A stretch of DNA of 64,000 nucleotides from Lacipirellulaceae bacterium (GTDB lineage Bacteria; Planctomycetota; Planctomycetia; Pirellulales; Lacipirellulaceae), in assembly GCA_040218535.1 (NCBI GenBank), contig JAVJRG010000005.1, forward strand, positions 62,001-126,000. The letters are read 5' to 3'. Made by a program: the position numbers and the translations under genes. The number at the start of each line of letters is the position of its first letter. Position 1 is the stretch's first letter. Shown here piece by piece: positions 42,029 through 60,578 of the stretch. The notes under the pieces were generated by a model. The model searched no databases and was not told the origin of the DNA. It saw nothing but the letters and a program-made list of their open reading frames with translations.

Positions 42029-43141
42029 TTAAGAGCTCCGCTTTCTTACGCAGGTTGCCGTCAGCAGACTGCCAAACAGAAGTACAACCGCACTTGGTTC
42101 GGGCACACTAGCCACGGCGGGTGCTTGAGCCGTTACCACAGTCATCTCAAGTGAACCTGCCCCGTAGTTGTCGGTGAAGTCGCTGAGGTCACCTACATTC
42201 GTATCACGCTGGTAGGCCAGAAAGTCTGCACCGTCAATGTCGTCATCGTTGTCGAAGTCACCGGGGCCTCCGGGGAGCAGAACTACATTGATATCGACTG
42301 CTCCGTTGACGCCATTGCCAATGATCTTATTCGCGTCGACGTAATTTTGGATGACCGCTTCAAAGTTACCAGGCAGCGTTAGCTCGCCAGTTCCTTGAAT
42401 ATCTATCACCGAGCCGTCCTGAATGGAGCCGAGGCGAGGTGATCCACTGACTTCGCCTGCATCAATGTTGTTAAGATTAAGTGATCCACCACTAAGAATA
42501 TTGACGGTCGCCGTTCCCAGTGAGGGATCCACAGCGTTCAGAGTACCGAGACCAAGGATACCGCCGGTCTGATTGAGCGTACCGCTGATATTAATTTCAC
42601 CTTGCTGGAAAACACCCCACCAGAGGTGACTGGCCACATTGACCGTGCCACCAGTGTTAATGTTGAGCAGGCCTAAGGAGTTCGTTCCTACAAGATCTCT
42701 CGCGACCCATAAAATCCTGCCGACGTTCACTTCGCCGCCATCGTTGACATTCATCGTGGCAACAACATCAAAGCCATTGTTGCCAACATGAATGTCTTCG
42801 GTGGCTGTTAGAACGCCTCCATTATTGACATCGACAATACCAGACTCGTCGACGCCAATACGCAAGCGGAGAACATCTGGAACATCGGAGTCGACGGTCA
42901 CTGTGTTGTTGCCGAAGTTCACCCGAGTTTCGTCACCAGGACCAGGGAGCGAGCCCGGCGGGTTGCCCGGGCCGTTGTTTGGGTTTAGTCCCCAGCCGGG
43001 ACTGGTTCCGTCGGTGACGTCTGTCCAATTCCCATCAAGGCGAAATCGATAAACGTCTTGGGCATTCGAAGTCTCAGTCACCGTGAAGGTCGCCACGATG
43101 AATGCAGTAACGAGGCTCAATTTGAACGTGCGTGCTAACAT
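42029..43141 (-). CDS. PEP-CTERM protein with beta-rung repeats and dockerin-like motif, paralogue of 49650-50573
   Basis: This 370-residue secreted protein has a signal peptide (MLARTFKLSLVTAFIVATF...SNA), then RFRLDGNWTDVTDGTSPGWG and a repeat region of short beta rungs (MNVNDGGEVNVGRILWVARD, GTVNVASHLWWGV, ISGTLNQTGGILGLGT, VNILSGGSLNLNNI). A dockerin-like pair (GDFDNDDDIDGADFLAYQRD) and the sorting tail VPEPSAVVLLFGSLLTATCVRKRSS end it. ATG 43141 is chosen because it is preceded by GAGGGAGAG; the in-frame ATG 43213 is not. The gene is divergent from the sulfatase operon and shares with it a promoter region containing two operator palindromes. It is strikingly similar in order and wording to the protein at 49650-50573. 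No enzymatic motif is present. Confidence 0.85.
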   Translation of the reverse strand: MLARTFKLSLVTAFIVATFTVTETSNAQDVYRFRLDGNWTDVTDGTSPGWGLNPNNGPGNPPGSLPGPGDETRVNFGNNTVTVDSDVPDVLRLRIGVDESGIVDVNNGGVLTATEDIHVGNNGFDVVATMNVNDGGEVNVGRILWVARDLVGTNSLGLLNINTGGTVNVASHLWWGVFQQGEINISGTLNQTGGILGLGTLNAVDPSLGTATVNILSGGSLNLNNIDAGEVSGSPRLGSIQDGSVIDIQGTGELTLPGNFEAVIQNYVDANKIIGNGVNGAVDINVVLLPGGPGDFDNDDDIDGADFLAYQRDTNVGDLSDFTDNYGAGSLEMTVVTAQAPAVASVPEPSAVVLLFGSLLTATCVRKRSS

Positions 43142-43430
43142 TTCTACTCTCCCTCTCAGATCAAATATGCGGAACGCTTGGGGTTGTTGATTTCCAGAAC
43201 TGTGATCTTTCACGGTTTTGGATTCTCACTGGCTTGAATCTGGCTCGTGTCGAGTAGACAAGTTGCCACGCCGAACGGTCGAGTCCGACGTGGCAGCTGT
43301 CATAGGTCGCCAGGCTAAGCTGCCCCAATAGCCGGGCATTACTCCCATCTTGCTTGAACGGTTTGAGCTCGCTTTGGAAAAGTCATTGTCGAGCGAGCGC
43401 GACGTGATCAGTCATGTCAATAATCCAGAA

Positions 43431-43448: not shown

Positions 43449-43567
43449 TTCGTCAAGCATTCTCCAATTCAATTCCTGCATTTATTTGAAATCCCTTGTT
43501 TCAAGCCATTTTTTAACACTGCTCGCATTGCCTTGCTAACCAGATGTTCGCCCTCTATGATGGTCAG

Positions 43568-43626: not shown

Positions 43627-46290
43627 ATGATTACCGCCGCTGTTCCGAAGCTCTTTTTTTTGTTGAGTCTCTATCTGGCGCTCGTGACCACGGCCTTTGG
43701 GGACGTCCCCATGCCGAATGTCGCTAGGCCGAATATTGTGCTGATCCTCGTTGACGACATGGGGTACGGCGATCCTGCCTGCTTCAACTCAGAATCCAAA
43801 ATACCGACACCAAATATTGATACGATCGCGCAGGCAGGCATGCGATTCACCGATGCGCACGCTCCTGGCCCGCTTTGTCACATGTCACGGTATGGGCTGC
43901 TAACGGGACGCTATCCGTTCCGGACTGATGTCACCATTTGGCCGAAGAAACCGTTGGTCGCCCCCGGCCAAACGACACTCGCATCACTAGCTAAACAAGA
44001 AGGCTACGCGACAGCAATGGTTGGGAAGTGGCATTTGGGCTTTGACGAGCAGGGATACGATCGGCCACTGCGCGGCGGACCCGTCGATTGCGGGTTCGAT
44101 CGCTTTTTCGGAATACGTGCGTCCACAGACATCCCGCCTTACTTTTACATTCGCGACGATCAGGCCGTTTCGCCACCCACTGAATACATCGCTGCAAGCA
44201 ACAGCGAGGACTGGTCGCCTATTCAAGGGAAGTTTTGGCGGGCCGGTGGGATTGCTCCTGACTTGCAGTTAGAGGATGTATTACCTCGTTTTACTGACGA
44301 AGCAATTGCTGCCATTAAAGGGCATCAAGAGAGAAGTACCTCCGTCGATCAACCGTTGTTGCTTTATCTCGCCTACCCTGCACCTCATACGCCGTGGCTT
44401 CCGGATGAAGAGTTCTTGGGAAAGAGCGGGGCTGGAACCTACGGCGATTTCGTCGCGATGGTCGATGCTGAGATCGGTCGAGTGCTGAAAGCTCTCGACG
44501 AAGCAAACATGGCCGAAGATACGTTGCTGGTCTTCACCTCCGACAATGGGCCGGCGTGGCGAGCAAAGGATGTCGCCCGTTTCGGGCACGAGTCCGCCGG
44601 CAAGTTTCGTGGCATGAAGGGTGATGCGTGGGAGGGTGGGCATCGTATGCCAATGATTGTGCGGTGGCCGGGTCGCATTGAGCCAAACACAACTAGCGAC
44701 CAACTCGTGTGCTTCACCGATTTTCTTGCGACCTTTGCTGACGTGATGGGAACGCAATTGCCTGTCCGAGCGGGTCCGGACAGCGTCAGTTTCCTTCCTG
44801 CACTGTTGGGTCGCTCTGGAGACCACAATGCTATGCGGCAGCAACTGGTGATACAGGCTGGCAGCTTGCCGTCGATGATGACGATTCGGCACGGAGCTTG
44901 GAAACTAATCACGCAACTTGGCTCGGGCGGATTCACCAAGCCAAAGTACATTTCTCCTCAGCCAGATGGTCCGAATGGTCAGCTATACAATCTTGAGGTT
45001 GATCCTGGTGAGGCCGACAATCTCTACCAAGCTCATCCAGAAAAAGTTGCCCAGCTAGCGAGCCAGTTGGAAGAAGCTGTCGACAAGGAAGCGTCTGGGA
45101 CTCAGAGAGCTATCGAAGGAGACGTCGTCGACAGTAGCACACTGACAGGTAAAGTCATCTGTGGCTACCAAGGTTGGTTCAACTGCGAAGGGGACGGGGC
45201 CGATTTGGGTTGGTTTCACTGGGCTCGAGGCGAAGAGTTGACCCCGGAAACCGTAAAGGTCGATTTGTGGCCAGACGTTTCCGAGTTTGATGCCGACGAA
45301 TTGTTTGCTACCGGGTTCAAACATGCTGATGGTAGTAGCGCTAAGGTTTTTAGCAGTAGAAATCAGAAGTCCGTCGCTAGACACTTTCGATGGATGCAGC
45401 AGTATGGAATCGACGGTGCTTTCCTACAAAGATTCGCTTCAGAATTGCCGCACAAACGCCGGCTGGAGAATCGCAACGTTGTTCTTGATAATGTTCGAAG
45501 GGGAGCGAAACAGGCCGGCAGAACTTACGCGGTGATGTATGATCTCTCCGGCCTGAAAGCTGGTGAAGTAAAGATTGTTCAAGAGGATTGGGCAACCCTC
45601 CGCAGGACGTTAAACCTGACAAAAGACAAAGCTTACCAACATCACGAGGGAAAACCTGTGGTGGCCGTGTGGGGTGTTGGTTTCGGCACGGAACTAAAAC
45701 CCCGCGAGTATTCGCTCAAAGAGTGCCGCGAGCTGGTTGAATTTCTAAAAGCGGACGGTTGCAGTGTGATGCTAGGCGTCCCTACAGGGTGGCGTAAATT
45801 GGAACGAGACGCTAATTCCAATTCTAAACTTCACGAGGTTCTGCAACTGGCAGACATTGTGAGCCCTTGGACCGTGGGTCGCTATCGCAACCAGGAAGAG
45901 GTTGCCCGCCACGCAAAAGAATATTGGCGGATCGATAATCGTTGGTGCAAGCAGCGGGATCTGGATTACATGCCCGTTATCTTCCCTGGGTTCAGTTGGC
46001 ACAACCTACATGGTGGCGATCTTGATCAAATTCCGAGGCAGAAAGGCGAATTTCTTTGGTCGCAAATCCTTGCGGTCAAGAAGGCACGCTGTGATATGCT
46101 TTACGTGGCAATGTTCGATGAAGTCGATGAAGGGACCGCGATCTTCAAATGCACGAATGATCCCCCGAGAGCTAATGGTGGTAAGCTCATCGACTATGAA
46201 GGGCTGCCGAGCGACTTCTACCTCGACTTGGTCGGCAAAGCGGGGAAGGTTTTGCGGGGCGAAATCCCACAGACGAAAGAGATCCCGTAA
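43627..46290 (+). CDS. Secreted sulfatase fused to a GH71/99-like glycoside hydrolase domain
   Basis: This 887-residue bifunctional exported enzyme starts with a signal peptide (KLFFLLSLYLALVTTAFG). The sulfatase domain occupies about 30-480: metal-binding RPNIVLILVDDMGYGD, active-site loop LCHMSRYGLLTGR with the formylglycine candidate Cys84, GKWHLG and TSDNGPAW. A second domain follows (about 500-887), opening with TGKVICGYQGWFN and containing RHFRWMQQYGIDGAFLQRF, PVVAVWGVGF, PVIFPGFSWHN and MFDEVDEGT (Glu832, Glu835). It is homologous to the stand-alone enzyme at 60579. The sulfatase motif reads CHMSR instead of CxPSR, so Pro is replaced by Met. It is the first gene of an operon with two more sulfatases and lies directly after operator 1b. 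It probably removes sulfate and cleaves the same glycan. Confidence 0.88.
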   Translation: MITAAVPKLFFLLSLYLALVTTAFGDVPMPNVARPNIVLILVDDMGYGDPACFNSESKIPTPNIDTIAQAGMRFTDAHAPGPLCHMSRYGLLTGRYPFRTDVTIWPKKPLVAPGQTTLASLAKQEGYATAMVGKWHLGFDEQGYDRPLRGGPVDCGFDRFFGIRASTDIPPYFYIRDDQAVSPPTEYIAASNSEDWSPIQGKFWRAGGIAPDLQLEDVLPRFTDEAIAAIKGHQERSTSVDQPLLLYLAYPAPHTPWLPDEEFLGKSGAGTYGDFVAMVDAEIGRVLKALDEANMAEDTLLVFTSDNGPAWRAKDVARFGHESAGKFRGMKGDAWEGGHRMPMIVRWPGRIEPNTTSDQLVCFTDFLATFADVMGTQLPVRAGPDSVSFLPALLGRSGDHNAMRQQLVIQAGSLPSMMTIRHGAWKLITQLGSGGFTKPKYISPQPDGPNGQLYNLEVDPGEADNLYQAHPEKVAQLASQLEEAVDKEASGTQRAIEGDVVDSSTLTGKVICGYQGWFNCEGDGADLGWFHWARGEELTPETVKVDLWPDVSEFDADELFATGFKHADGSSAKVFSSRNQKSVARHFRWMQQYGIDGAFLQRFASELPHKRRLENRNVVLDNVRRGAKQAGRTYAVMYDLSGLKAGEVKIVQEDWATLRRTLNLTKDKAYQHHEGKPVVAVWGVGFGTELKPREYSLKECRELVEFLKADGCSVMLGVPTGWRKLERDANSNSKLHEVLQLADIVSPWTVGRYRNQEEVARHAKEYWRIDNRWCKQRDLDYMPVIFPGFSWHNLHGGDLDQIPRQKGEFLWSQILAVKKARCDMLYVAMFDEVDEGTAIFKCTNDPPRANGGKLIDYEGLPSDFYLDLVGKAGKVLRGEIPQTKEIP

Positions 46291-46353: not shown

Positions 46354-47940
46354 ATGCGTAAAGGATCACTGAAACTGCTGTTCCTCTGGGTCATTCTAAT
46401 CGCAACAGACGCGTCAATAGTTTTCGGGGACGCAGACGGCAGGCGTCCGAACATTGTGTTCATCTTTTCCGATGACCACGCGCCTCATGCCATCGGCGCC
46501 TACGACGGTTGGTTAAAATCCATCAATCCCACGCCTAACATCGACCGGCTGGCCTCAAGGGGGATGCTGTTCGAGAAGAGCTTCTGCACGAACTCGCTCT
46601 GTGGACCCAGCCGCGCGGTGATCCTGACCGGCAAGCACAGCCACATCAACGGTTTTACGAATAACTCGACGCGCTTCAATGGTGACCAGCAGACGTTTCC
46701 GAAGCTGCTACGAGCAGAAGGTTACCAGACGGCCATCTTCGGCAAGTGGCATCTGCAAAGCGATCCGCAAGGCTTCGATGTGTGGAAGATTCTCCCCGGG
46801 CAAGGGCTCTACTATAACCCCGACTTTTTGACGCCTGAAGGCAAGACACGCGTTGAAGGCTACTGCACGGACATCGTTACGGACATGACACTTGAGTGGC
46901 TAACGAAAGAGCGGGATAAGGACAAGCCGTTCATGGTGATGTGCCAGCACAAGGCTCCACACCGTTGCTGGATGCCACCACCAAGGTATCTCAATCTTTA
47001 CGACGATATCGATATCCCTGAACCCGCTACGCTTTTCGATCAGTGGGAGGAGAACGCATCGCCGGCTCGCAAACAGGAAATGGAAATTGATCGGCACTTA
47101 GATCCTCACTATGACCTGTTCCTCAATCTCACGCCCGATTTTTCTGGAGAAGCGATTCAGAAACGGCAGGATAAATCGGCGCTTGAAAACATAAAACGGT
47201 TTTCGCCCGAGCAACTCAAAGTTTGGAGAAAGGCTTACGGTCCTAAGGACGAAGCTTTTCATGCTCAAGACCTCAAGGGCAAGGACCTTATCAGGTGGAA
47301 GTATCAGCGATACGCGAAAAACTATCTCCGCTGCATTAAGGGTGTGGATGATTGCGTCGGCAGAGTCGTGGCGACCTTAGAGAAGAACGGGTTGGCTGAA
47401 AACACGGTTGTGATCTATTCGTCTGACCAAGGTTTTTTCGTGGGTGACCACGGCTGGTATGACAAACGTTGGATGTACGAAGAATCGCTGCAGATGCCTC
47501 TCATCGTGAGCTGGCCCGGCCAGATCGAGACTGGTTCGAATTGCCAAGCGATGGTTCAGAACTTGGACTACGCCGAGACCTTTCTCGAACTCGCCGGAGC
47601 GTCCGTTCCGGACGACATGCAGGGTGCCTCGCTCGTGCCTTTGCTTAAAGGAGAGACTCTCAAGGCGTGGCGCGACAGCATTTACTATCACTACTACGAG
47701 CACCCTTCATTCCATATGGTCGCGCGGCATTACGGGATTCGCACCGAGCGATACAAGCTGATGCACTTCTACGAGGTGGGTGAGTGGGAGTTTTATGACT
47801 TGCTAGAAGACCCCGATGAACTGACCAACCAATATGGAAATACCGCTTACGCTGCAATCATCGGGCAACTGAAACTACAGTTGGCCGATCTCCGTGCCCG
47901 CTACAAGGACGAGACAGGTGTCTCTGTGGTAGGGAAGTAA
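46354..47940 (+). CDS. Secreted sulfatase (S1 family, CGPSR)
   Basis: This 528-residue formylglycine-dependent sulfatase has a signal peptide (KLLFLWVILIATDASIVFG), metal site RPNIVFIFSDDHAPH, active-site motif SLCGPSRAVILTGK with Cys83, and GKWHL. A long insert follows (about 220-320) with many charged residues, then VIYSSDQGFFVGDHGWYDKRWMYEES and a C-terminal DUF4976-type tail. The sequence resembles S1 subfamilies that include N-acetylglucosamine-6-sulfatases, but subfamily and linkage are not certain. GGAG lies 6 bases before ATG 46354. It is the second gene of the operon, 63 bases after the fusion gene. Confidence 0.9.
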   Translation: MRKGSLKLLFLWVILIATDASIVFGDADGRRPNIVFIFSDDHAPHAIGAYDGWLKSINPTPNIDRLASRGMLFEKSFCTNSLCGPSRAVILTGKHSHINGFTNNSTRFNGDQQTFPKLLRAEGYQTAIFGKWHLQSDPQGFDVWKILPGQGLYYNPDFLTPEGKTRVEGYCTDIVTDMTLEWLTKERDKDKPFMVMCQHKAPHRCWMPPPRYLNLYDDIDIPEPATLFDQWEENASPARKQEMEIDRHLDPHYDLFLNLTPDFSGEAIQKRQDKSALENIKRFSPEQLKVWRKAYGPKDEAFHAQDLKGKDLIRWKYQRYAKNYLRCIKGVDDCVGRVVATLEKNGLAENTVVIYSSDQGFFVGDHGWYDKRWMYEESLQMPLIVSWPGQIETGSNCQAMVQNLDYAETFLELAGASVPDDMQGASLVPLLKGETLKAWRDSIYYHYYEHPSFHMVARHYGIRTERYKLMHFYEVGEWEFYDLLEDPDELTNQYGNTAYAAIIGQLKLQLADLRARYKDETGVSVVGK

Positions 47941-47990: not shown

Positions 47991-49487
47991 ATGAAGTTTT
48001 GGATCTATTGCTGTTTGTTGCAGGTTGCGGTGGCCAGCCTCTCATACGACTGTCCTGCAGAAACGCAGCAGCCAAACGTTCTGTTCTTCGCCTTGGACGA
48101 TCTCAATGACTGGGTTGGTCCCTTAGCGCACCGTCAGGCGGTCACGCCGAATATGGATCGCCTAGCGAGCAGAGGCGTTACGTTTACTAACGCCCATACC
48201 GCGGGAATCTTCTGCGCACCTTCCCGCTCGGCCATTTTCACTGGGCAGCACGCGCATAACACAGGTTGCTACACGACTCAGGTTTATTTCCACCACCGTC
48301 CTGAGATTACTCCGCTGCAGCAGGTGCTGCAGGAGGCAGGTTATGCGACCTATGGTGCTGGCAAACTCTTTCATCACCCGGCTGGTTTTATTGATCGGCG
48401 TGGCTGGGATGAGTTTTTCTTGCGAAGCGAAGATCTCAAGCAGCGGGGGTGGCCGTTGGATAGCTGGACAGTCGACAGCCCTGCCCTGCCCCAGCCTTAT
48501 CCGAACAGCATCTTCAATCACGATCGGGCTCCTGCGAACGGATTCTTTCTTGAGTGGGGAAAGGTACCCAATGAAAAAGAAGAACTGATGGCGGACACCA
48601 TCCGCACGAACTGGGCATGCGGACTCTTGAAGCGAAGACATGATCAGCCGGTATTCGTGGCGGTTGGACTCTACACTCCTCACTTTCCGAATTACGCTCC
48701 AGCAAAGTACTTTGATCTTTACGATCCTAAGAAGATCGAGCTGCCAGCCTACCGTGCCGACGACTTGGAAGACCTACCGCCGAAGGTGCGTAAAGCGAAA
48801 GAGGCACGAGCAGCACATCACAAACGCCTAGAAAGTCTAAATGCGGTCGACGACGCGATCCACGGATACTTGGCCTGTATCTCTTACGCTGATGCCATGC
48901 TAGGACGCTTGCTCGACTCGATCGAGTCAGGGCCGAATGCTCAGAACACGATCGTCGTTCTTTGGAGCGATCACGGTTATCACCACGGAGAGAAGTTCGA
49001 CTGGGGCAAGCACACGCTGTGGGAGCGAACCTCGAACGTACCGCTTATCTGGGCTGGGCCGGGTATGAGTCGCGGGGCAACGGTTGATGCGACCGTGAGC
49101 CTTGTCGATATGTTCCCGACACTCACAGAGCTCTGTACCGCTAAGGATGAGTTGGGCCGTGATGGGGTTTCACTAGTTCCGGCATTGCAGAATCCATCTT
49201 CAGCAGATGACCGTAATGTTGTTGTGCCCGGAATGAAGCCGCACGAATACGCAGTAGTGAATCAGAGGTGGCGCTATATTCGCTATGCGGATGAAACTGA
49301 GGAGCTCTACGAGATCAGGAAGGATCCCAACGAATGGGACAATCTGGCAGCGCTATCAGAATACAAAGGCGTAATGAAAAAACTCCGAAAGGTTGGCCCT
49401 CAATCATTCGTAAGCCCTGGTCCTGATAGAGCCAAACTAAAGTTGGTCGTTGGCGGGAGTAATTTTCATTGGACCACGAAAGAGTGA
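47991..49487 (+). CDS. Secreted sulfatase (iduronate-2-sulfatase-like, CAPSR)
   Basis: This 498-residue sulfatase has a signal peptide ending near CPA (1-22), metal site QPNVLFFALDDLNDW, active-site motif IFCAPSRSAIFTGQ with Cys75, and GAGKLFHH in place of the GKWH motif as in the iduronate-2-sulfatase-like branch (S1_7). It also has VGLYTPHFPNYAP and VVLWSDHGYHHGEKFDWGKHTLWE. The C-terminus (YEIRKDPNEWDNLA) is standard. It is the third gene of the operon, 50 bases downstream of the second sulfatase, and ends facing the minus-strand PEP-CTERM gene and its terminator. Confidence 0.9.
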   Translation: MKFWIYCCLLQVAVASLSYDCPAETQQPNVLFFALDDLNDWVGPLAHRQAVTPNMDRLASRGVTFTNAHTAGIFCAPSRSAIFTGQHAHNTGCYTTQVYFHHRPEITPLQQVLQEAGYATYGAGKLFHHPAGFIDRRGWDEFFLRSEDLKQRGWPLDSWTVDSPALPQPYPNSIFNHDRAPANGFFLEWGKVPNEKEELMADTIRTNWACGLLKRRHDQPVFVAVGLYTPHFPNYAPAKYFDLYDPKKIELPAYRADDLEDLPPKVRKAKEARAAHHKRLESLNAVDDAIHGYLACISYADAMLGRLLDSIESGPNAQNTIVVLWSDHGYHHGEKFDWGKHTLWERTSNVPLIWAGPGMSRGATVDATVSLVDMFPTLTELCTAKDELGRDGVSLVPALQNPSSADDRNVVVPGMKPHEYAVVNQRWRYIRYADETEELYEIRKDPNEWDNLAALSEYKGVMKKLRKVGPQSFVSPGPDRAKLKLVVGGSNFHWTTKE

Positions 49488-49649: not shown

Positions 49650-50573
49650 TTAACGACGTCGACGAGCAAGAACTCCAGATAGCCCAAGGCTCAACAAGAG
49701 CGCTGAGGTCGGCTCAGGAATCTGGCTTAAGTAAGCTGTCGTAAAGCCAGGGTTCTTGGTGAGGTCGATGATTACGTCTGACGCACCCCCATCACCGGTG
49801 ATCTTGCCGGCGGCTTCATAATCGTTCAACAGTCCCACAAAGTCGCCCGGCAAAGTCAGCTCGCCAGTGCCTGTGATATCGATAACCGATCCGGCTTGAA
49901 TCGAGGGCAGTCCCGCGGCACCAGAAATGTTATTCAACGCCAGTAGGCCACCGCTCATGATGTTGACGGTAGCGGTACCGCCCGAAGCAGTGGAAGCGTT
50001 ACTTGTACCAAGGCCAAGAATGCCACCGGTCTGAGAAAGTGTGCCGCTGATATTTGCGATTGCGGTACCTGTTACGCCCCACCAAAGATGGCTGGCAACA
50101 TTCACTTGCCCGCCTGGATTGATGTTGATGTTGCCATTTGAGTTGTCGTTGGCAGCCCACAAGATCCGCCCAACATTCACGGTCCCGCCGTCGTTGACCG
50201 TCAGCGTACCGGTTGCATTTGCATTGTTGTTGCCAGCAAGAATGTCAAGGTTTGCTGTAAGGTTTCCTCCATTCTGAACAATGAGGATACCGCTCTCATC
50301 AACGCCAATTTGAACTCGACTGACGGTTGGAACAGTTGAGGTCACCTGGACGGTGTTTCCGCCAAAGTTAATTCGGGCGTCATCACCTGCTCCCGGTAGG
50401 CTCGTTCCCACACCGACAGGATTCGGCCCCCAGCCTGGGGTAGCACCGTCCGTTATCTGAGTCCAATCTCCGCTAGCACGGTAGCGAAGTGTCGCAGCGT
50501 AAGATTGCTCAACCGTCATCGCCATTATGGCGACTAGCGCAGCAAGTGCGCAGAAAAATCTTTCTCGTCTCAT
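49650..50573 (-). CDS. PEP-CTERM protein with beta-rung repeats, paralogue of 42029-43141
   Basis: This 307-residue secreted protein has a signal peptide (FFCALAALVAIMAMTVEQSYA), then LRYRASGDWTQITDGATPGWG and rungs matching its paralogue almost phrase by phrase (VQIGVDESGILIVQNGGNL, LTVNDGGTVNVGRILWAAND, GQVNVASHLWWGV, ISGTLSQTGGILGLGT, ITGTGELTLPGDF). A variant sorting tail IPEPTSALLLSLGLSGVLARRRR ends it. Unlike the paralogue it lacks the dockerin-like stretch. AGAGGGAGA upstream of ATG 50573 repeats the leader of the paralogue. It is divergent from the LEERRLL surface protein, with two operators between. Function unknown. Confidence 0.86.
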   Translation of the reverse strand: MRRERFFCALAALVAIMAMTVEQSYAATLRYRASGDWTQITDGATPGWGPNPVGVGTSLPGAGDDARINFGGNTVQVTSTVPTVSRVQIGVDESGILIVQNGGNLTANLDILAGNNNANATGTLTVNDGGTVNVGRILWAANDNSNGNININPGGQVNVASHLWWGVTGTAIANISGTLSQTGGILGLGTSNASTASGGTATVNIMSGGLLALNNISGAAGLPSIQAGSVIDITGTGELTLPGDFVGLLNDYEAAGKITGDGGASDVIIDLTKNPGFTTAYLSQIPEPTSALLLSLGLSGVLARRRR

Positions 50574-50938: not shown

Positions 50939-53900
50939 ATGGGACGTACCTACAACCTTAGAGGCTTGCAAAACGGTAATGGAAGGAGGGATAGCCATCG
51001 CCGCCCCTTATTCGAGCTACTTGAAGAGCGACGCCTCTTAACGACCGTTACGTTTAATTCTCCCTCCTCAAACAGTGGCGACGGCACTTGGGTTGCCGAG
51101 CAGCGCGAGGGAACCACGGTTCATGTCGGTCCCGCTTTTCTCTACTACAACACCACGCTCAATGCGTTTCCCGGAGCTCAAGCGGGAGACACTTTCTATC
51201 TGAAGGTCAACTATTACGACGAAGGCTCGGGACGACTTCGTGTTGAGTATGACAGCCTCACGGATAACTTTGACGATACTGAGTTCCACTCGCGTTCAAG
51301 CGTTGTGGACACCCAGCAATTCGTAAGCACGTATCACGTATTGGAGAACGTGCAGTTTGCTAACGGCAGTAATGGTCGTGACTTTCGCGTGAACACTGGT
51401 GGCGTACCTGTCTCAACAGTTGAGCTTTCTGACCAACCTTTTCCTGAAAGCGGTCTCGACTGGGTCTTCTCGCCACCTTGGGAGTCACCCTATCAGGGCC
51501 CAAGCCGAGAGGTCGATGCCTCGACTCTTAGTGGCAAGGTGCTGGCCGGCTATCAGGGGTGGTTTAACACACCCAACGATGCGGCTGATGAAGGATACGT
51601 CCACTGGGGGCAGCCTGGGAATTGGTCGATTGAGCAATGGCCCGATGCGAATGATTACGACGCGAACGAAGTCTTTGCCGTGCCGGGCGTGACGACTGCC
51701 AGCGGCGAACAAGCCTATCTTTTTTCTTCAGCGAATGCGTCGGTAGTGAATCGACACTTCCGTTGGATGCGTGAGCACGACATTGACGGAGTTTTCGTGC
51801 AGCGATTCTCCGAGTCGTTCATGTTTAATCAGCCCGATGGCTCGTATCAAGGGGAGCCCCAGTGGCCGGTCGTTAACGCTCGCGACGCAGCCCATCGTGA
51901 GGGACGCACGTGGGCCATCGAGTACGACATTCAGAATGGCGGAACGGAAGCTCAGCGGTGGCAGAAAATCCAACAAGTCAAGGACGACTGGGAGTTTCTG
52001 ACCGACACCAACGGTTTGGACATGCTGAACGACTCGCATTATCAGCGAGAAGACGGCAAGCCGGTCGTGGCGATTTTTGGGTTGCATGTCACCAGTGGCA
52101 ACACTTACACGACCGCGCAGCAGACAGACCTTATCAACTATTTCCAGTCACGTGGCGTCTACGTGATCGGTGCCGGGCGACATACTCAGACTCCTGGACA
52201 AGTGGCGAATGCTGGACTGCACGACGCTTATATTCCTTGGCAGGGATATTGGGCGGGTGGAGACTCTTTCGCTCCTAACGAAGCAATCTTAGACGGCGTC
52301 ACCGATCACATACCACATATCTTCCCCGGCTTCTCTTGGACCCATTTGCAGAATGACGACACGGCAACTTCGATTGACCGTGAGGATGGCGAGTTCTATT
52401 GGCGGATGATCAGCGATGCTGCTAATGAAACCGACGCGCCGTGGTACTTCATCGGGATGTTCGACGAATACGACGAAGGCACGAATCTCATCCCCGGGAC
52501 CGACGATCCGCCAGTGCCCGACACGGACCCGCAGGGCGATCCGCTCACCTATCAAGTAAGCGACCCGAGGCCGAACGACTGGTGGATGGCGCTTACTGGA
52601 AGAGCAAAGCAAGCACTTCAGGGCAAGATTTCTATCAACGATACGATGCCAACCGAAGCGGAACTTGAGAATCGTTCAAATACTGGCGGCGAGGTCGTTT
52701 GGGAGGGCTCTGGCGGTGATCGGCTTTCAACCGTCGACAACCCTGATGGCCAGATCCAGAGTATGTCGTTCACGGTCGACGGTGAAACCTTCGATGCGAT
52801 TTTCTCTGCGGACGATTACCTGTACTTCGCTTTAGACGACGATTTTCTCCTGGACGAAACCGACGGTCGTGATGTGACGATTGAAGTGGAGTATCTCGAT
52901 AATTCCGTTGGTCAGTTTGGTGTCGGGTACGATTCCGCATCGAGTGCGTTCACAACAAGCTCCGTGGCGTCACTGACGGGCAGCAATCAATGGCGTAGAC
53001 ACCGTTTCCAACTTTCTGATGCTCGTTTCGACAATAATCAGGCGGGTGGAGCCGATTTTCGCATCGAAAAGGCGGGTGGAAATCTGTTCATCCGCCGAGT
53101 GCGTATTATCAAGGAAAGTATGCTGACCGTCGACGCGGATCTTGGGACGACGAACACCATCAATGGCCTAAGGCAAGTCGATCAGTCTGGCGATGGGCAG
53201 ACAGCGGCAACGACCGTCGATGGTCGTAGCGTTCGTGTAGTGACTGGGGCACCGACCTCTCTCTATATGTACATGCGAGTCGACGACGACTTCGCTCATG
53301 AAGTTCAAGCAGGCTTGAACGCGATTGTCGAAGTCATCTACCGCGACGTTGGCGCTGGCAGCCTGAATATTCAGTACGATTCGACGACGTCGGCTTTCCA
53401 GCCTGCCACGCCGGTGACTCTCACCAATAACGGACAGTGGCGGACGGCACGCTTTTATTTGGACGACGCCTTCTTCGGTAACCGCCAGAATGCCGCGGCA
53501 GATTTTCGTATCGTGGGCAGTAACATCCCTATCGACCGCGTGCGTGTCTTGCACTCCTTCGCCGATCTTATCGATCCGGAATTGCAAGCAGCCATAGCTA
53601 CGTCTAATCCGGCGCAGAATACGGCCACCGTGCAGTGGTCGCTAGCTGACGATTGGAAAACCGGTGCGATGGACGAGTGGACAGTGCGTGAAGATATGCA
53701 AGCGTTGCTCGAGTGGTCGAACAATGGCGGTACCTCATGGAACGCTCTGGATCACGTCTATCAACACGCCAGCGGAACTTCGCAGACAGGCTATGACATG
53801 GCGACGGGGCGTAGCACCTGGTCCGACGAATTTGCTTGGGATACCTCAAGCTTGGCGTCGGGGACGTATCAAGTGCGCGTGACACCCACTGATGGACAAG

Positions 53901-54487
53901 GCAATCTTGGTGCGAGCATGGTGACTGCCGCGCTCGAAGTAAATCTGCCTCCCGACTTGCCGGGCGACTACAACTATGACGATGGCGTGGATACTGGTGA
54001 TCTCACCGTTTGGACCGACAACTACGGGACGAGCGTACCGGTGGGGACTGGCCCGGACGGTTCGATGAATGGTTTGATTGACGGCGGCGATTTCCTCACT
54101 TGGCAACGAAACTTCGGGGCATCGGCTGCAGTTTCATCTGGGGTTCAGACTTTGAGCACAATTACGACAGGCACGGCTGTAGTAGCAAGTGAGATAGAGG
54201 CAACCAAGCCATCGGAACCACAACCAACCTCGCGACTCGCAGTTCTCGACGCTAGCTTCTCGCAACAAGCACTCAACCGAGAAAGTAAAGAAGTTGAGAC
54301 AGTTGAAGAAGAGTCAGAAGCGTTTGTCGAGAAACTTACTCGTTTCACCACGAACCATTCGGAGCTTCCTAGCTCAAACGAAGCGGCACCGGAAAATGCG
54401 GTTTTCGACGAAGTTTACTCTGAAGAGGAAGAGTCCATCAATGCATTCTTCACACAAGGCGATCCTTTGAAGATTGCATGGGGCTAA
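50939..54487 (+). CDS. LEERRLL surface protein with GH71/99-like domain, three beta-sandwich modules and dockerin-like repeat
   Basis: This 1182-residue predicted surface enzyme has the N-terminal LFELLEERRLLT motif (24-35). Beta-sandwich module A follows (about 38-163), then the GH71/99-like domain (about 195-565; GKVLAGYQGWFN, RHFRWMREHDIDGVFVQRF, HIFPGFSWTH, MFDEYDEGT with Glu510 and Glu513). Modules B (about 600-725) and C (about 740-872) share with A the pattern VEYxDxxxGxxxVxYDS ... DFRI and are probably carbohydrate-binding. An Ig-like domain (about 890-990), a dockerin-like pair (GDYNYDDGVDTGDLTVW ... GLIDGGDFLTWQRNFG) and an acidic tail end it. There is no PEP-CTERM tail. It lies behind operator 2b. 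This is the surface-bound member of the three related enzymes. Confidence 0.85.
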   Translation: MGRTYNLRGLQNGNGRRDSHRRPLFELLEERRLLTTVTFNSPSSNSGDGTWVAEQREGTTVHVGPAFLYYNTTLNAFPGAQAGDTFYLKVNYYDEGSGRLRVEYDSLTDNFDDTEFHSRSSVVDTQQFVSTYHVLENVQFANGSNGRDFRVNTGGVPVSTVELSDQPFPESGLDWVFSPPWESPYQGPSREVDASTLSGKVLAGYQGWFNTPNDAADEGYVHWGQPGNWSIEQWPDANDYDANEVFAVPGVTTASGEQAYLFSSANASVVNRHFRWMREHDIDGVFVQRFSESFMFNQPDGSYQGEPQWPVVNARDAAHREGRTWAIEYDIQNGGTEAQRWQKIQQVKDDWEFLTDTNGLDMLNDSHYQREDGKPVVAIFGLHVTSGNTYTTAQQTDLINYFQSRGVYVIGAGRHTQTPGQVANAGLHDAYIPWQGYWAGGDSFAPNEAILDGVTDHIPHIFPGFSWTHLQNDDTATSIDREDGEFYWRMISDAANETDAPWYFIGMFDEYDEGTNLIPGTDDPPVPDTDPQGDPLTYQVSDPRPNDWWMALTGRAKQALQGKISINDTMPTEAELENRSNTGGEVVWEGSGGDRLSTVDNPDGQIQSMSFTVDGETFDAIFSADDYLYFALDDDFLLDETDGRDVTIEVEYLDNSVGQFGVGYDSASSAFTTSSVASLTGSNQWRRHRFQLSDARFDNNQAGGADFRIEKAGGNLFIRRVRIIKESMLTVDADLGTTNTINGLRQVDQSGDGQTAATTVDGRSVRVVTGAPTSLYMYMRVDDDFAHEVQAGLNAIVEVIYRDVGAGSLNIQYDSTTSAFQPATPVTLTNNGQWRTARFYLDDAFFGNRQNAAADFRIVGSNIPIDRVRVLHSFADLIDPELQAAIATSNPAQNTATVQWSLADDWKTGAMDEWTVREDMQALLEWSNNGGTSWNALDHVYQHASGTSQTGYDMATGRSTWSDEFAWDTSSLASGTYQVRVTPTDGQGNLGASMVTAALEVNLPPDLPGDYNYDDGVDTGDLTVWTDNYGTSVPVGTGPDGSMNGLIDGGDFLTWQRNFGASAAVSSGVQTLSTITTGTAVVASEIEATKPSEPQPTSRLAVLDASFSQQALNRESKEVETVEEESEAFVEKLTRFTTNHSELPSSNEAAPENAVFDEVYSEEEESINAFFTQGDPLKIAWG

Positions 54488-54500
54488 TAGACAAACAGGT

Positions 54501-55946
54501 CTAGTTCAAGGCGGGGAAGCCCTGTTTCAATAACTTGTCCATCCGCTCGCGCACCTCCGCGAAGTCAGGGTCGTCAGCTAGGTTGTAGTAGCCCGCGTGA
54601 TCTTTGGAATGATCATAGAGTTCGTACCCACCTTGTCCTTTCTTACCCCATTGCGTGAAGCGGTAGGAACCTTGGCAAACGCTGTAGCCCATGCCTACTT
54701 CACCGCGTGTGACTTGCGTATAAGCTGACTGGTCCCATGTCTTGGCAGGTTCTTCCAGGACGGGACGTAAGCTCTTGCCCGAGAGCTTATGCGGATTTTC
54801 TAGCCCGCAGTAGTCGATAAGCGTCGGGTAAAGGTCGAGAAATTCAACGACAGAATCAGTCGGCTGCCCCATCCCTTTTTCTCCCGGCACCCAGATCATC
54901 ATCGGCCCGCGGGCACCGAGTTCGAAGACGGTTACTTTGTTCCACCAGCCGTGCTCACCCAAATGGTAACCGTGGTCACCCATCAGGACGACGATCGTGC
55001 TGTCCCAAAGCTCCAGTCGATCGAGGGTCTCAAACAATTTTCCCACCTGGGCATCGGCAAAAGTGGTGCAGGCACGATAGGCACGCTTGATCTCACGGCA
55101 ATCTTGATCGTTGAACTTGGAAAAGTCGTAGCTATGGATTGGCAGCGCATGTCTTAGTAACGGAGTTCGATCAGCAGGATTCTTAGCCAGCTTGACCTGA
55201 TCCAAAGGATAAGGCTCGAAGTATTCCTTTGGTGCGTGAAACGGATCGTGGGGCTTGTGAAATCCGACGCTGATGAAGAAAGGGTTATCACGGTTTTCTT
55301 CAAGAACTCGTACCGCCTCGCTGGCCAGCATGCCATCGGGCTGCGCCTCGTCGCCCCCTTCCGCGGCCAGCCACGAACACCAAGGGATGCTCTCACCGCC
55401 TACCTTGCGACCTTTTCCTTCGTGCCCGATGGCTGGGCTCTTCCCGAGCGCACGGTAAAAGTGATCGAAAGAAGCCATGTCACGAAACAGTGTTTTCTTG
55501 CCTGTGTCATCGAGTCCTACGTGAAAGAGCTTTCCTAGTCCGGCGGTGTAATAACCGTTGTTGCGGAAGAGTTGCGGAAGCGTAACCAAGTCGGGCCACT
55601 TCTGCCGCAGCGAAATTTCATTATTCAAGATTCCGAGCTCATCAGGGCGTTTGCCTGTGAGAAAAGAAGCGCGGCTCGGATTGCAAACCGGGTACTGACA
55701 ATAGGCGTGGTTGAATTTCACGCCTTTCTTCGCCAGGCGGTCCATGTGGGGCGTAACCATCGATGCTTTGCCGTAGCATTTAACTTCGGGACGCAGGTCG
55801 TCGACCACGATGAACAAGACGTTGAGTTTAGGGGCCGCCGTAGCCATGCCTGTAAGCACTGCGCTGACCAATAAGACGCTCAAACCAGTCGATGAATTGC
55901 GAAATGCTGATTGAAGAAGGCGGCTGGTTGCGACTTTGGACTTCAT
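54501..55946 (-). CDS. Secreted sulfatase (iduronate-2-sulfatase-like, CNPSR)
   Basis: This 481-residue sulfatase starts at ATG 55946 (AGG a few bases upstream). It has a signal peptide (LSVLLVSAVLTGMATAA), metal site LNVLFIVVDDLRPE, active-site motif YPVCNPSRASFLTGK with Cys88, GLGKLFH, HKPHDPFHAPKEYF and VVLMGDHGYHLGEHGWWNK; these match the S1_7/iduronate-2-sulfatase-like branch. The frame extends upstream to 56192, but that part would cross operator 3a, so it is not used. The gene is divergent from the regulator gene and convergent with the surface protein gene (13-base gap). Confidence 0.92.
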   Translation of the reverse strand: MKSKVATSRLLQSAFRNSSTGLSVLLVSAVLTGMATAAPKLNVLFIVVDDLRPEVKCYGKASMVTPHMDRLAKKGVKFNHAYCQYPVCNPSRASFLTGKRPDELGILNNEISLRQKWPDLVTLPQLFRNNGYYTAGLGKLFHVGLDDTGKKTLFRDMASFDHFYRALGKSPAIGHEGKGRKVGGESIPWCSWLAAEGGDEAQPDGMLASEAVRVLEENRDNPFFISVGFHKPHDPFHAPKEYFEPYPLDQVKLAKNPADRTPLLRHALPIHSYDFSKFNDQDCREIKRAYRACTTFADAQVGKLFETLDRLELWDSTIVVLMGDHGYHLGEHGWWNKVTVFELGARGPMMIWVPGEKGMGQPTDSVVEFLDLYPTLIDYCGLENPHKLSGKSLRPVLEEPAKTWDQSAYTQVTRGEVGMGYSVCQGSYRFTQWGKKGQGGYELYDHSKDHAGYYNLADDPDFAEVRERMDKLLKQGFPALN

Positions 55947-56031
55947 TCTCGCGACCTCATGTTCGTGCGTGAGATATCCGAGCGGCAGCAGGGAAGAGAG
56001 TTTTGGGAGACGAATCTGATGATGGACAAAA

Positions 56032-56049
56032 TATACCAAATTTGGTACA
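56032..56049. promoter_or_regulatory. Operator palindrome 3a (TATACCAAATTTGGTACA)
   Basis: This near-perfect 18-bp palindrome lies 85 bases before the start of the divergent sulfatase gene (55946, minus) and is 109 bases from site 3b. It differs from perfect symmetry at one base pair near the end. Confidence 0.8.
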
Positions 56050-56140
56050 CATTGCAAAATCGTTGGGGTAATTAGCCACAAAACCAGTGAAATTCGTGCG
56101 GGATGTTTCAAAAAAGGCTCGTCGAGACTATCATGTTCTG

Positions 56141-56158
56141 TATACCAACTTTGGACTA
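56141..56158. promoter_or_regulatory. Operator palindrome 3b (TATACCAACTTTGGACTA), probable autoregulatory site
   Basis: This 18-bp consensus variant lies 25 bases before the assumed start of the regulator gene. It is the least symmetric of the six (three mismatched pairs), which would suit weaker binding at the regulator's own promoter. Confidence 0.65.
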
Positions 56159-56183
56159 CCCGATGGTCTACGTCACCTCCGAG

Positions 56184-57314
56184 ATGTCTCACTTCGAGTC
56201 AGCGCATCTTGAAGAATTGGCGATAACCCACACTCCTGCAATGAAGCACCTCCGCATTGCCAATCTGCTCGAACGCAGAATCCAGAAAGGGGATTATGCC
56301 CTGAATGGGATTCCTGCCGAACGCGATTTGGCCGACGACATTGGAGTCAGTCGAGTTACCCTTCGCAAAGCACTCGACGACTTGGAGCAAAAGGGCCTTC
56401 TCGAAAGGGCTGCGAATCGTCGACTTGTGCTTAGTCCGAATGCGCGCGCGAAAGTTGGTGGGATGCAGATTGCATTCGTCTCGCCGAGCATCGCCCCGAA
56501 GTCATTCTCACCTGACTTGCAACTTTGGCTAGCGGCTATGGAAAGTGTGGCACGTAAACGAGGGGATCGCGTGCGTGTGATTAACTACCACCACTGGGAC
56601 GATCCGGCGATTACCGAATCGATACGGGCCTTCGATGGTGTTTTTCTCGTCACCAGTTCTGAGCCAATCCCTGCGTGGACGGCTGAGTTGCTTACCGAAG
56701 CGAATGGAGTGGTTGCACTATCTGAGGATTTGACGCACTTCGATATGCCGTCGATTGTCCTGTTCCCGCCGCGATTAACTGATTCCATGATTGAGCGTTT
56801 GCAAAATCTCGGTCATCGACAGATCGATTGCATCAATGTTCAAGGCCACAACACAATTACGCAAGCAAGAATCGACGAGTGGACCAAATGGAGCGAGGGT
56901 GAATCAGTTGGCGGACGGCTCTTTGATGAGCCGTGTGACGTCGATCGAAACATCTTCGACGTTGGTGTCGAGGTCGCGCGTAAATGGATTCGCGAGAAGG
57001 ATAAGCAAACCACGGCTGTCTTCTGCATCACTTTACCGGCAGCGATGGGCGTAGTCCGAGCCGCTAGCGAAGCCGGCATCTCGATCGGCGATGAGCTATC
57101 CGTCTGCACGATTGACTGCGAAGGCATTGGAAAGTTTATCAATCCGCCGATCGCGTCTTTCGAACGTCCTGAAGCCGTGGACTACATGAATACCTGTGCT
57201 GATTGGTTTGCTGGCGGAGGTGAAGTAGATAACTGGGATGGGCCGCTCTTGATCGAACCGCAGGAACTCAAAATCTTCGATGGCGGTTCAATCGGGTCAC
57301 CGACAACGAAATAA
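56184..57314 (+). CDS. GntR-HTH / LacI-type sensor regulator (AraR-like architecture)
   Basis: This transcription factor of about 376 residues has an N-terminal winged helix of GntR type (RIANLLERRIQKGDY, PAERDLADDIGVSRVTLRKALDDLEQKGLLER). Its C-terminal periplasmic-binding-protein-like sensor resembles LacI family members (GGMQIAFVSPSIAP, AFDGVFLVTSSEPI, AVFCITLPAAMGVVRAASEAGISIGDELSVCTID). The same two-part layout is known from AraR of Bacillus, which binds palindromic operators and is released by a sugar. The gene heads a four-gene run with GH38, GH71/99-like and symporter genes, and two operator palindromes lie in its divergent upstream region. The start is uncertain: ATGs at 56163, 56184 and 56241 are in frame; earlier ones would include operator 3b. 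The effector is presumably a mannoside, by context only. Confidence 0.85.
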   Translation: MSHFESAHLEELAITHTPAMKHLRIANLLERRIQKGDYALNGIPAERDLADDIGVSRVTLRKALDDLEQKGLLERAANRRLVLSPNARAKVGGMQIAFVSPSIAPKSFSPDLQLWLAAMESVARKRGDRVRVINYHHWDDPAITESIRAFDGVFLVTSSEPIPAWTAELLTEANGVVALSEDLTHFDMPSIVLFPPRLTDSMIERLQNLGHRQIDCINVQGHNTITQARIDEWTKWSEGESVGGRLFDEPCDVDRNIFDVGVEVARKWIREKDKQTTAVFCITLPAAMGVVRAASEAGISIGDELSVCTIDCEGIGKFINPPIASFERPEAVDYMNTCADWFAGGGEVDNWDGPLLIEPQELKIFDGGSIGSPTTK

Positions 57315-57390: not shown

Positions 57391-60300
57391 ATGCACCAAC
57401 AGCAGGACAAGCCGAGAGTTGAGCGCGCACCTGATGCTCCTCAGCGAAGCCATCCTGCTGGCTCGCCTCCCTTCGTTGGTGAAAGTACTTACATTGAAGG
57501 TCGCGTAAAGGTTCTAAAAGATCGGCTCGCCCAAGCAATCTACCCTCGGCGATCACCGGTCAAATCAATCGAGTTTGCCGGACCTGTTGAACGCATTTCC
57601 TTTGATGAAGCGAAAGACCTTAATTTTCGTCCGACAGAAATCGGCGTATCACTTGGGCCGACCTTCGCGACTTACTGGTTTCGACTCAAAATTCAGATCC
57701 CGGAAGATTGGCAGGGCGAGCGGATCGATTTCGCTTGGAGCAGCAACAGCGAAGCAGAACTCTGGATCGAGGGGCAAGCGGTTCACGGTTTCAATCCGGG
57801 TCGCGAAACGTCACAACTTATCAAAGTGGCCGAAGGTAATGAGGAACTGACTCTCTTCGTCGAGGTGGCTTGCAATCATTTGCTCGGTGCCGACGGAGTG
57901 CCCGGCCTTCCCTGGCCGACTCCCTCGCCACGCTCTTCTCACTGGCTCGAAACTTGCGAGATTCGCTGTTTTGATCGAGCGGCATGGGATCTCTATCACG
58001 ACATTCGAGTGCTCTACGAACTTCTCGTTGACCGCCTGCCGGCACAGGAGTCGCGTGCCATCAATCCGGGTCAGAAAGCGTTGTCTCGACCGGCGCTCGA
58101 CACTGCTTGGGCAGGCCAACTTCTCTATGATTTGAATGCCGTCTGCAATTCGTTGGACCCAGACAATCGCCAAACGTGGGCGGCAGCTCGTGAACAACTT
58201 TCCCAATTGCTTTCTGTCGGCAACGGCTCAGTTTGCCACGAGCTCAGCGCAATCGGACACGCCCACATCGATACCGCTTGGCTGTGGCCCTTGGCGGAAA
58301 CGTATCGCAAGACCGTACGAACTTTCAGTTCCGCTGTCCGCAATATGGATGACTATCCTGAGTTTCTGTTCGCATGCTCACAAGCCTATCAGTACGAGTG
58401 CATCCAGCAGCGAAACCCCGATCTCTTCCGCCGGATTCAAGAAAAGGCTGACGCCGGTCAATGGATTCCCGTGGGAGGGACCTTTATCGAGCCCGACTGT
58501 AATCTGCCTTCTGGTGAGTCACTCTGTCGGCAGTTCCTTTTTGGGCAGCGCTACTTCGAGAAACACTTTGGGCGTCGCTGTACCGAATTCTGGAATCCCG
58601 ATGTCTTTGGATACGCAGGGCAACTTCCGCAGATCATGCGTCTGGCAGGTATCGATAAGTTCCTGACGCAGAAGCTCTCTTGGAACCGCTTCACATCGCC
58701 CCAGCATCACACATTCTACTGGGAAAGCCCCGACGGCAGTCGAGTCCTTACGCACTTCCCACCCGCCGACACTTACAACGGCACTTGCGAGGTCGAGGAA
58801 CTCCGCTATCACGCGGCAAACTACAAGAATGCTGACCGTGGCCGCGATGCTTATTACCTTTTCGGGCATGGCGATGGTGGTGGGGGGCCGACGACCGAGA
58901 TGCTGGAGACGTTGCGCCGCACGAAAAACTTGCTAGGTGTCCCGAAGTGCGAGCATCGTACGCCGGAAGACTTCTTCCAGCGACTTGAGAAAAATACACG
59001 GTCGATTCCCAGCATCGTCGGCGAACTATATTTCGAGCTGCACCGTGGCACTTACACCAGCCAGGCGATGATGAAGCGCGGTTTGCGAAAAAGCGAGCGG
59101 CTATTGCATGACATTGAGTTGGTCGGTGTCTTGGCTCGCCACCAGTCGCAAGCGAGTTACCCCAAGGAGCGGGTTGATCAGCTTTGGAAGAAGCTGCTGC
59201 TGAACCAATTTCACGACATCCTGCCGGGTTCTTCGATCGCTGAAGTTCACGAACAGGCCCGCGGCGACTTTGCTTCGATTTTGGAGTTCGGACAAGCCAT
59301 CCGCGAAGAATTGCTTGATCAACTTTCGCACGGAGAGTTGGAAAGCGGAGAACCAGAAGGCAGTACCTTGCTGCCGCTGAATACCACCAGCTTCCCGCGA
59401 CGTGAAGTCGTCGAGACGGCTGATCGAGGGTTGCATTTGGTAGACGCACCGTCTGTTGGTTTTGGTGAATTCTTGCCGCGCAACGAGCCACGTATGCCGG
59501 TAACCATCGAGCTTCGTGATGGCGTGCTGCATTTGCAAAATGAGTCACTCTCGGCAAAGCTTTCCGAGAGTGGAGAGCTGTTAGAACTGAAGGAAACCGA
59601 ATCGGGTCGGCAAGTTCTCAGTGGACCTGGCAATAAATTCGTTCTCTACGACGATCATCCCAGCCTCTGGGACGCCTGGGATGTTGAACCTTCGATTCTT
59701 GAAACAGGTCATGACTGCCAACCTGCCTCGCGGTGTCACATCCAAACTCCCGGACCCCTACGGGCGGAAGTCGTTTTTGAGCGAGCCATCGGCACGAGTA
59801 GCTCATTAAAACAGACCGTCCGTTTGGACGCTGATTCACGACGGTTGGAGTTTCACTGCGAGGTCGATTGGCAAGAAAAGCACAAGCTGCTCAAAGTGCA
59901 TTTCCCAACCACGGTTCGCGCTAGTAACGCCACTTTCGAGATGCCCTTCGGTTTTGCTGAACGACCCACACACTGCAATACTTCTGCCGACGCAGCCCAG
60001 TTCGAAGTCCCGGGGCATCGTTGGGCAGATCTTTCAGAGCCAGGCTACGGAGTTGCCTTGCTTACTGATTGCAAGTACGGCTATAGCGTGAGTCGCGGTG
60101 ATCTTGCTCTGAGCTTGCTGCGTGCTCCGACTTATCCTGACGAGCAATGCGATGTCGGTAAGCACCAATTTGCCTATGCTGTCGTGCCGCACCAAGGTGA
60201 TTGGCGGTCTGGCGACGTCGTTCGCGAAGCGACCAGCTTCAACCAGCCATTGCTGTGGGCAAAGCGACCGGAAATTGAGGCTGGCCGCTCGCTATTTACC

Positions 60301-60567: not shown

Positions 60568-60578
60568 CGAGTACTTCA

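Follow-up and report, generated by a model that had tools for sequence, protein, structure and literature searches.

Described enzymes pairing a sulfatase with GH195

The closest described counterpart of the gene discussed here is PbSulf1-GH195 of Polaribacter sp. Hel1_33_78, a single secreted chain in which an S1_51 sulfatase precedes a glycoside hydrolase of family 195 (GH195) (Krull et al., Microbiome, 26 March 2026; PMC13063451). The gene itself lies at positions 43627-46290 of a 64,000-nucleotide stretch of a Lacipirellulaceae bacterium (Planctomycetota; assembly GCA_040218535.1, contig JAVJRG010000005.1, positions 62,001 to 126,000, forward strand). This stretch is called the window below, and all positions refer to it. 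The gene encodes a sulfatase followed by a GH195 hydrolase in one protein. Genomes and loci used for comparison carry G and L numbers.

In Polaribacter, the sulfatase acts first, working internally on C6-sulfated α-1,3-mannan from diatoms, and cleavage by the GH195 domain requires this step (PMC13063451). In Ochrovirga pacifica, the two activities are encoded by separate genes, OpSulf1 and OpGH195, and the GH195 domains of the two organisms share 36% identity (PMC13063451). Order of action and substrate have been shown for these Polaribacter and Ochrovirga enzymes (PMC13063451). The PbSulf1-GH195 locus also holds a GH92 α-mannosidase and further sulfatases (PMC13063451).

The window protein shares with PbSulf1-GH195 the order sulfatase then GH195 in one secreted chain (PMC13063451). 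Two flavobacterial frames (L164, L165) are taken as PbSulf1-GH195 orthologues, and their GH195 halves are 45-46% identical to that of the window protein. The differences are clear: PbSulf1-GH195 belongs to Bacteroidota, has SusC/D genes nearby and carries an S1_51 sulfatase (PMC13063451), whereas the window sulfatase is only 21-22% identical to the orthologues' sulfatase half; the orthologues reach about 1,415 residues with a type IX secretion system (T9SS) tail, and the window protein has 887 residues and no such tail. Lacking both the S1_51 sulfatase and the tail, it was rejected as a PbSulf1-GH195 orthologue. The OpSulf1/OpGH195 pair (OpSulf1, PDB 9FVT) resembles three verrucomicrobial loci described below (L073, L082, L191) in having the two activities on two genes (PMC13063451), but OpSulf1 is again S1_51, and 9FVT scores 83 bits against the window sulfatase half, compared with up to 253 for the best chains.

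The sequence-only reading, an earlier interpretation made from the letters of the window alone, had not recognised the combination as a described enzyme; PbSulf1-GH195, which has the same domain order, is characterised (PMC13063451). The architecture has been known since 2026; what is new, by sequence assignment, is the S1_15-related sulfatase in it. A version with such a sulfatase was not found in the open-access literature searched. A more distant parallel is PDB 6hr5, an α-L-rhamnosidase/sulfatase (GH78) by its PDB molecule name, which likewise has a sulfatase named together with a glycoside hydrolase; it differs in GH family, sulfatase subfamily and polysaccharide, and belongs to the ulvan pathway as a bimodular protein.

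The fused gene and its proposed function

The gene and its parts are as follows:

43627-46290, forward strand: fused gene for an S1 sulfatase and a GH195 hydrolase, 887 residues (open frame, Pfam, homologue alignment)
43627-43701, forward strand: putative signal peptide, about residues 1-25 (hydrophobic N-terminus judged by eye)
43729-44751, forward strand: sulfatase catalytic domain PF00884, residues 35-375 (Pfam, E 5e-55)
43876-43890, forward strand: residues 84-88, the formylglycine motif, reading C-H-M-S-R with Met where Pro/Ala is expected (clade alignment)
44128-44133, forward strand: D168-I169, aligned with the galacto-reading Asp-Arg dyad of S1_15, Arg replaced by Ile (residue mapping by the analyst)
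44632-45084, forward strand: sulfatase C-terminal subdomain, SGSH_C match at residues 336-486 (Pfam)
45121-46287, forward strand: GH195 domain, residues 499-887 (45-46% identity to the GH195 of L164/L165, AlphaFold2 pLDDT 95.1, GH99 fold with Z 33)
46114-46137, forward strand: F-D-E-V-D-E-G-T with E832 and E835 (invariant in 32/32 rows, aligned to the GH99 pair)

Translation of 43627-46290 gives 887 codons without a stop, and the mechanical open reading frame (ORF) begins earlier, with a GTG at 43567. The presence of both complete domains in a single chain, as the sequence-only reading had proposed, is confirmed: a PF00884 sulfatase and a GH99-fold hydrolase share one frame.

The best reading of this protein, with a probability of about two in three, is that of a secreted tandem that opens sulfated α-mannan by desulfating it and then cutting it. 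The sulfatase half would be active and endo-acting, taking sulfate, probably 6-O-sulfate, off a mannose inside the chain. The GH195 half, needing a desulfated mannose in its cleft, would then cut the backbone, presumably α-1,3-linked, at that point. Both steps would take place on one substrate held by one protein. The resulting oligosaccharides might be finished by exo-enzymes from neighbouring genes (GH38 in the window, GH92 and GH99 in sister clusters, and three more sulfatases), and a symporter would import the sugar.

This reading is supported by several lines: α-mannosidase genes nearby, GH195 homology, the GH99 fold, adjacent-gene pairs in other genomes and co-occurrence of the two genes. 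Further support comes from the closest solved sulfatases, which are 6-O-sulfatases of the S1_15 group, and from the absence of their galacto-reading Arg and of about 26 loop residues in the clade to which the sulfatase half belongs. The coupling of desulfation to cleavage, already suggested from sequence, gains from the dependence of the published relative's GH195 on prior sulfatase action (PMC13063451).

The hydrolase half

The C-terminal domain matches Glyco_hydro_99 (PF16317) weakly, at residues 764-869 with 21.1 bits against a gathering cut-off of 33. A few relatives pass this cut-off, among them L058:2468-5413 at 37.1 bits and L164:15556-16854 at 35.9 bits. Searched with a 22-row profile of the domain, the solved structures give 9 distinct sequences up to E 1, every one an endo-α-mannosidase or mannanase and the best at 5.5e-14; some of the chains are named ‘glycosyl hydrolase family 71’ in entries titled GH99. 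The AlphaFold2 model of the GH domain alone, built from a 32-row alignment, has a pLDDT of 95.1 and a pTM of 0.93, and it is closest to GH99 structures (Z about 33), with GH71 farther away (Z about 22-23). Foldseek likewise puts GH99 first, and GH71 is the less favoured family. The domain combines this GH99-type fold with an ExxE pair: glutamates E832 and E835 are invariant in 32/32 aligned rows and line up with E333 and E336 of the Bacteroides xylanisolvens GH99 enzyme (numbers from PDB titles). Relative to GH99 endo-α-mannosidases and mannanases, the fold (Z 33) and the two catalytic glutamates in ExxEGT are shared, but identity is about 15% and the domain stays under the Pfam GH99 cut-off.

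Assignment to GH195 comes from the Lutibacter citreus family (Flavobacteriaceae), where 6/299 genomes match the GH domain profile, five of them strongly. The frames L164 and L165 (1,415 and 1,418 codons) have the sulfatase at the N-terminus, the GH domain in the middle and the T9SS tail at the end; the best match of their sulfatase halves is PDB 9FVT (586 and 583 bits; next best 122 and 117). Over about 408 residues, the fused GH half shares 45-46% identity with the GH domains of these frames, above the 36% between the published GH195 pair, and is therefore assigned to GH195, via L164/L165 rather than via the Polaribacter sequence itself. The earlier label ‘GH71/99-like’ is sharpened to GH195, the fold lying nearer GH99 than GH71.

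The sulfatase half

The nearest solved chains of the sulfatase half are 9bas and 9bau (S1_15 by PDB name) and 6s20 (N-acetylgalactosamine-6-O-sulfatase by PDB name). The top solved matches 7oze, 7p26, 7ozc and 6s20 are entries that we take to be S1_15. S1_51 is ruled out for this half: identity to the L164 and L165 sulfatase halves is 22% and 21%, and 9FVT scores 83 bits (586/583 for its close relatives) or, by profile, 122 against 331 for the best chains. By sequence, the half is placed in an S1_15-related clade of 21 members (6 fused and 15 stand-alone), compared below with 37 related sulfatases outside it.

S1_15 sulfatases take 6-O-sulfate off galacto-configured sugars (PMC6994673, PMC10154612). 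In BT3333, an S1_15 enzyme, the Asp/Arg pair D173 and R174 reads O4 and His225 reads O3 (PMC6994673). S1_15 sulfatases such as BT3333 are the closest solved relatives of the fused half and share with it the dyad Asp, but throughout the clade (21/21) the Arg is replaced by Ile, the loop after the dyad falls about 26 residues short of its length in 7oze, 6s20 and 9bas (judged from block ends of the alignment in the analyst's mapping), and the fused members have GH195 attached. The shortened stretch should correspond to the BT3333 region that holds His225 and the pocket-closing insertion. Because the dyad Arg is missing and the loop is shorter, we infer that galactose is no longer recognised by this sulfatase and that its cleft is more open, which desulfating a mannan internally would require. 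Absence of the Arg is not special to the fused clade, since all 37 outside sulfatases lack it as well.

Distribution and origin of the fusion

The phylum sample comprises 447 distinct Planctomycetota genomes (392 drawn evenly plus 59 relatives), and fusions were sought in reading frames around GH matches that were long enough for both domains. The fusion occurs in 6/447 genomes: the window's own, G425, G414, G415 and G394 of the same family, and G092 of another class of the phylum. The six proteins align end to end. This fusion is rare. A scan of named genomes gave no fused gene among the 80 loci kept from the matches listed, in which records near the window may be missing. No fusion was seen in Verrucomicrobiota, where 45/387 genomes have the GH domain and eight frames longer than 700 residues were checked, some matches lying at contig ends.

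Other long GH195 frames were rejected as sulfatase fusions: those of 717-734 residues in six genomes such as G048 (the one scanned has a Mala_s_1-like domain), further ones in G036, G023, G127 and G287, the eight in Verrucomicrobiota, those of G1146 and one of G1157.

In three verrucomicrobial loci, a clade sulfatase lies directly upstream of GH195 on the same strand: in L073 the mechanical ORFs overlap by 20 bases, in L082 37 bases lie between them, and in L191 they also overlap. In L084 both genes are a few kilobases apart, and in Planctomycetes bacterium CA13 they are separate (sulfatase L072, GH195 L179). The fused gene probably arose from two such neighbouring genes in the order sulfatase then GH195.

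Genomes with a stand-alone clade sulfatase hold GH195 in 10/15 cases (4/4 plus 6/11), against a background of 78/779 genomes of two phyla (33/392 plus 45/387; Fisher p 3e-7, or 4e-6 without a 110-residue fragment). After exclusion of L073, L082 and L084, which were possibly caught via the GH gene, the ratio is 7/12 (p 7e-5). For related sulfatases outside the clade it is 4/34 (0/8 plus 4/26; p 2e-4 against 10/15 and 3e-3 against 7/12), a set that omits four of the 37 outside rows (L146, a second copy in L083, L141 and L061); the L141 and L061 genomes hold GH195, and both loci were fetched with or for it. All these counts come from searches that differ in queries and thresholds, with backgrounds that may include carriers and rows that are non-independent.

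The sequences securely indicate at least two independent sulfatase-GH195 fusions with different sulfatases, because the flavobacterial tandem carries another sulfatase. Within the window's phylum, three fusions are likely. The fused label needs three changes on both the sulfatase and the GH tree, and the sulfatase tree rejects one clade of all fused rows (p-AU 0.001), though the GH tree does not (p-AU 0.097), for a group that was named after being seen. A single origin was set aside on these grounds. The grouping of the window protein with G414 and G425 is weakly supported on the sulfatase tree (29/2).

Gene neighbourhood

Downstream of the fusion, the window holds the following genes:

46354-47940, forward strand: sulfatase 2, 63 bp downstream of the fusion (Pfam)
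47991-49487, forward strand: sulfatase 3 (Pfam); adjoins the fusion in G425 and G414 and lies some kilobases from it in G415
50939-54487, forward strand: large protein whose GH195 domain has diverged (38% identity); 4/5 other fusion clusters have a relative
54501-56192, reverse strand: sulfatase 4 (mechanical ORF; the gene probably starts later)
56103-57314, forward strand: GntR/LacI-type regulator (Pfam)
57391-60567, forward strand: GH38 α-mannosidase (Pfam)
60507-61871, forward strand: stand-alone GH195, 50% identical to the fused domain; its true start is probably near 60573
61961-63946, forward strand: SSF sodium:solute symporter (Pfam)

GH38, GH92 and GH99 enzymes act on α-mannosides. Parts of this gene set recur around the fusions of G425, G414, G415 and G394; GH92 lies beside the fusion in G394 and about 4 kb from it in G415, which also has GH99. 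The presence of these three families in the window or its sister clusters supports sulfated mannan as substrate, as had been proposed from sequence. The roles of the individual neighbours in such a pathway are putative. Strong relatives of sulfatase 2 occur, at 476-551 bits, in three Flavobacteriaceae GH195 loci (L166, L167, L170).

GH38 and the stand-alone GH195 have mechanical ORFs that share 61 bases. At 42029-43213 and 49650-50573, both on the reverse strand, lie two paralogues whose tails look PEP-CTERM-like by eye; the former has no Pfam match, and relatives of both are found around the fusions of G425, G414, G415 and G394. Planctomycetal families are represented by a PF07596 member in the window and a PF07595 member in a sister locus.

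Contrary evidence and alternative explanations

Several observations weigh against the proposed mannan-opening tandem. The sulfatase is not of the published enzyme's subfamily (22% identity), and therefore the sulfate may sit at another position, or the sugar itself may be another. The domain interface cannot be judged from the full-length model, which is too poor for that (pLDDT 75.6, pTM 0.54, with a weak sulfatase half). GH195 was not seen in 5/15 of the genomes with a stand-alone clade sulfatase, and one of the ten positives is the 110-residue fragment; the contrast with outside sulfatases also weakens when L141 and L061 are counted (6/36; p 9e-4 against 10/15 and 9e-3 against 7/12). In the neighbourhood, the fetched parts of the other fusion clusters showed no sulfatase 2, nothing of the cluster was recognised in 18 kb around the G092 fusion, and the window has no GH92, the genome's single GH92 match lying 1.4 Mb away. 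The formylglycine motif also departs from the consensus, as detailed below.

The first alternative, which is unlikely yet deserves real weight, is the same two-step enzyme acting on another sulfated α-mannoside, with the sulfate elsewhere or on a side sugar and GH195 cutting a different linkage. A different sulfatase subfamily would then mirror a different glycan. The low identity to S1_51 (22%) fits this explanation, as do the clade's own invariant residues, which include R164-A-S and D168-I-P-P, and the variation of exo-enzymes between clusters (GH38 versus GH92). Against it, the nearest characterised sulfatases are 6-O-specific, and sulfatase 2 has counterparts in flavobacterial GH195 loci.

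A second and improbable alternative holds that the sulfatase half is immature or non-catalytic and acts as a module that binds sulfated chains, so that GH195 works alone. The formylglycine consensus is C/S-X-P/A-S/X-R (PMC10154612). The C-H-M-S-R of the window protein does not fit the maturation motif C/S-X-P/A-X-R, and the clade as a whole reads C-H-[M 8, P 7, L 5, V 1]-S-R: Pro/Ala is missing in 14/21 members, versus 0/37 of the related outside rows, all of which have Pro. The His at the second motif position is invariant across the 21-member clade. The metal and catalytic residues of S1 are nevertheless retained in 21/21 members: D43, D44, C84, R88, K134, H136, H254, D306, N307 and K331, which we take to be the catalytic residues of the sulfatase. 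Pro is kept in 7/21 members, the fused G092 among them, and the genome encodes proteins of the formylglycine-generating enzyme (FGE) type (best E 2e-69), a family that includes other proteins too. Because the other catalytic residues are intact and FGE-type proteins are encoded, we think that the sulfatase half is active.

The last alternative, two separate genes joined by frameshift, read-through or assembly, is negligible: the parts do adjoin as separate genes in three verrucomicrobial genomes and are separate at a distance elsewhere, but 43627-46290 contains no N, its halves are alike in composition (GC 0.552 and 0.516), and six genomes, the window's own and five further ones of two families, carry this fusion as an uninterrupted frame, so that a chance frame, a frameshift and an assembly join are excluded by independent copies.

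Wider implications and other GH195 fusions

If the desulfate-then-cut function holds, a broader picture can be sketched, tentatively and at somewhat less than even odds. Tandems of this kind for mannan might have evolved repeatedly: S1_51 with GH195 in Flavobacteriaceae, and the S1_15-related clade with GH195 in the window's phylum, perhaps three times. The latter would be a new subfamily of endo-acting mannan sulfatases whose formylglycine is matured despite Met, Leu or Val, which would widen the known formylglycine motif. This departure from the consensus makes the maturation rule of sulfatases directly testable. The repeated independent fusion of the same hydrolase to sulfatases is also evidence that coupling in one chain helps.

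Sulfated mannan of diatoms is a newly described marine carbon flow, and the degraders studied in its description are Bacteroidota (PMC13063451). Planctomycetota, with fused genes, and Verrucomicrobiota, with adjacent genes, would join the candidate degraders, using another sulfatase for the first step.

GH195 is also joined to other partners. In Pontiellaceae G1146, a 911-residue frame combines GH195 with a calcineurin-like phosphoesterase and CBM4_9 (L228:1486-4221; the same gene as L243:3962-6697), and in the broader picture this chain may be to phosphate what the sulfatase-GH195 tandem is to sulfate. The same genome (locus L077, Pontiellaceae isolate Prado239) has 21 GH195 matches in 2.5 Mb, some of them pieces of one gene. 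Four frames (L058:2465-5413, L235, L236 and L214) have in common an N-terminal region of about 480-570 residues joined to GH195, with 38-63% mutual identity; three of the four show beta-helix matches in this region. In L199:1495-3486, a xylose-isomerase-like TIM barrel (AP_endonuc_2) is fused to GH195, and N-terminal parts of comparable length occur in L200 and L205.

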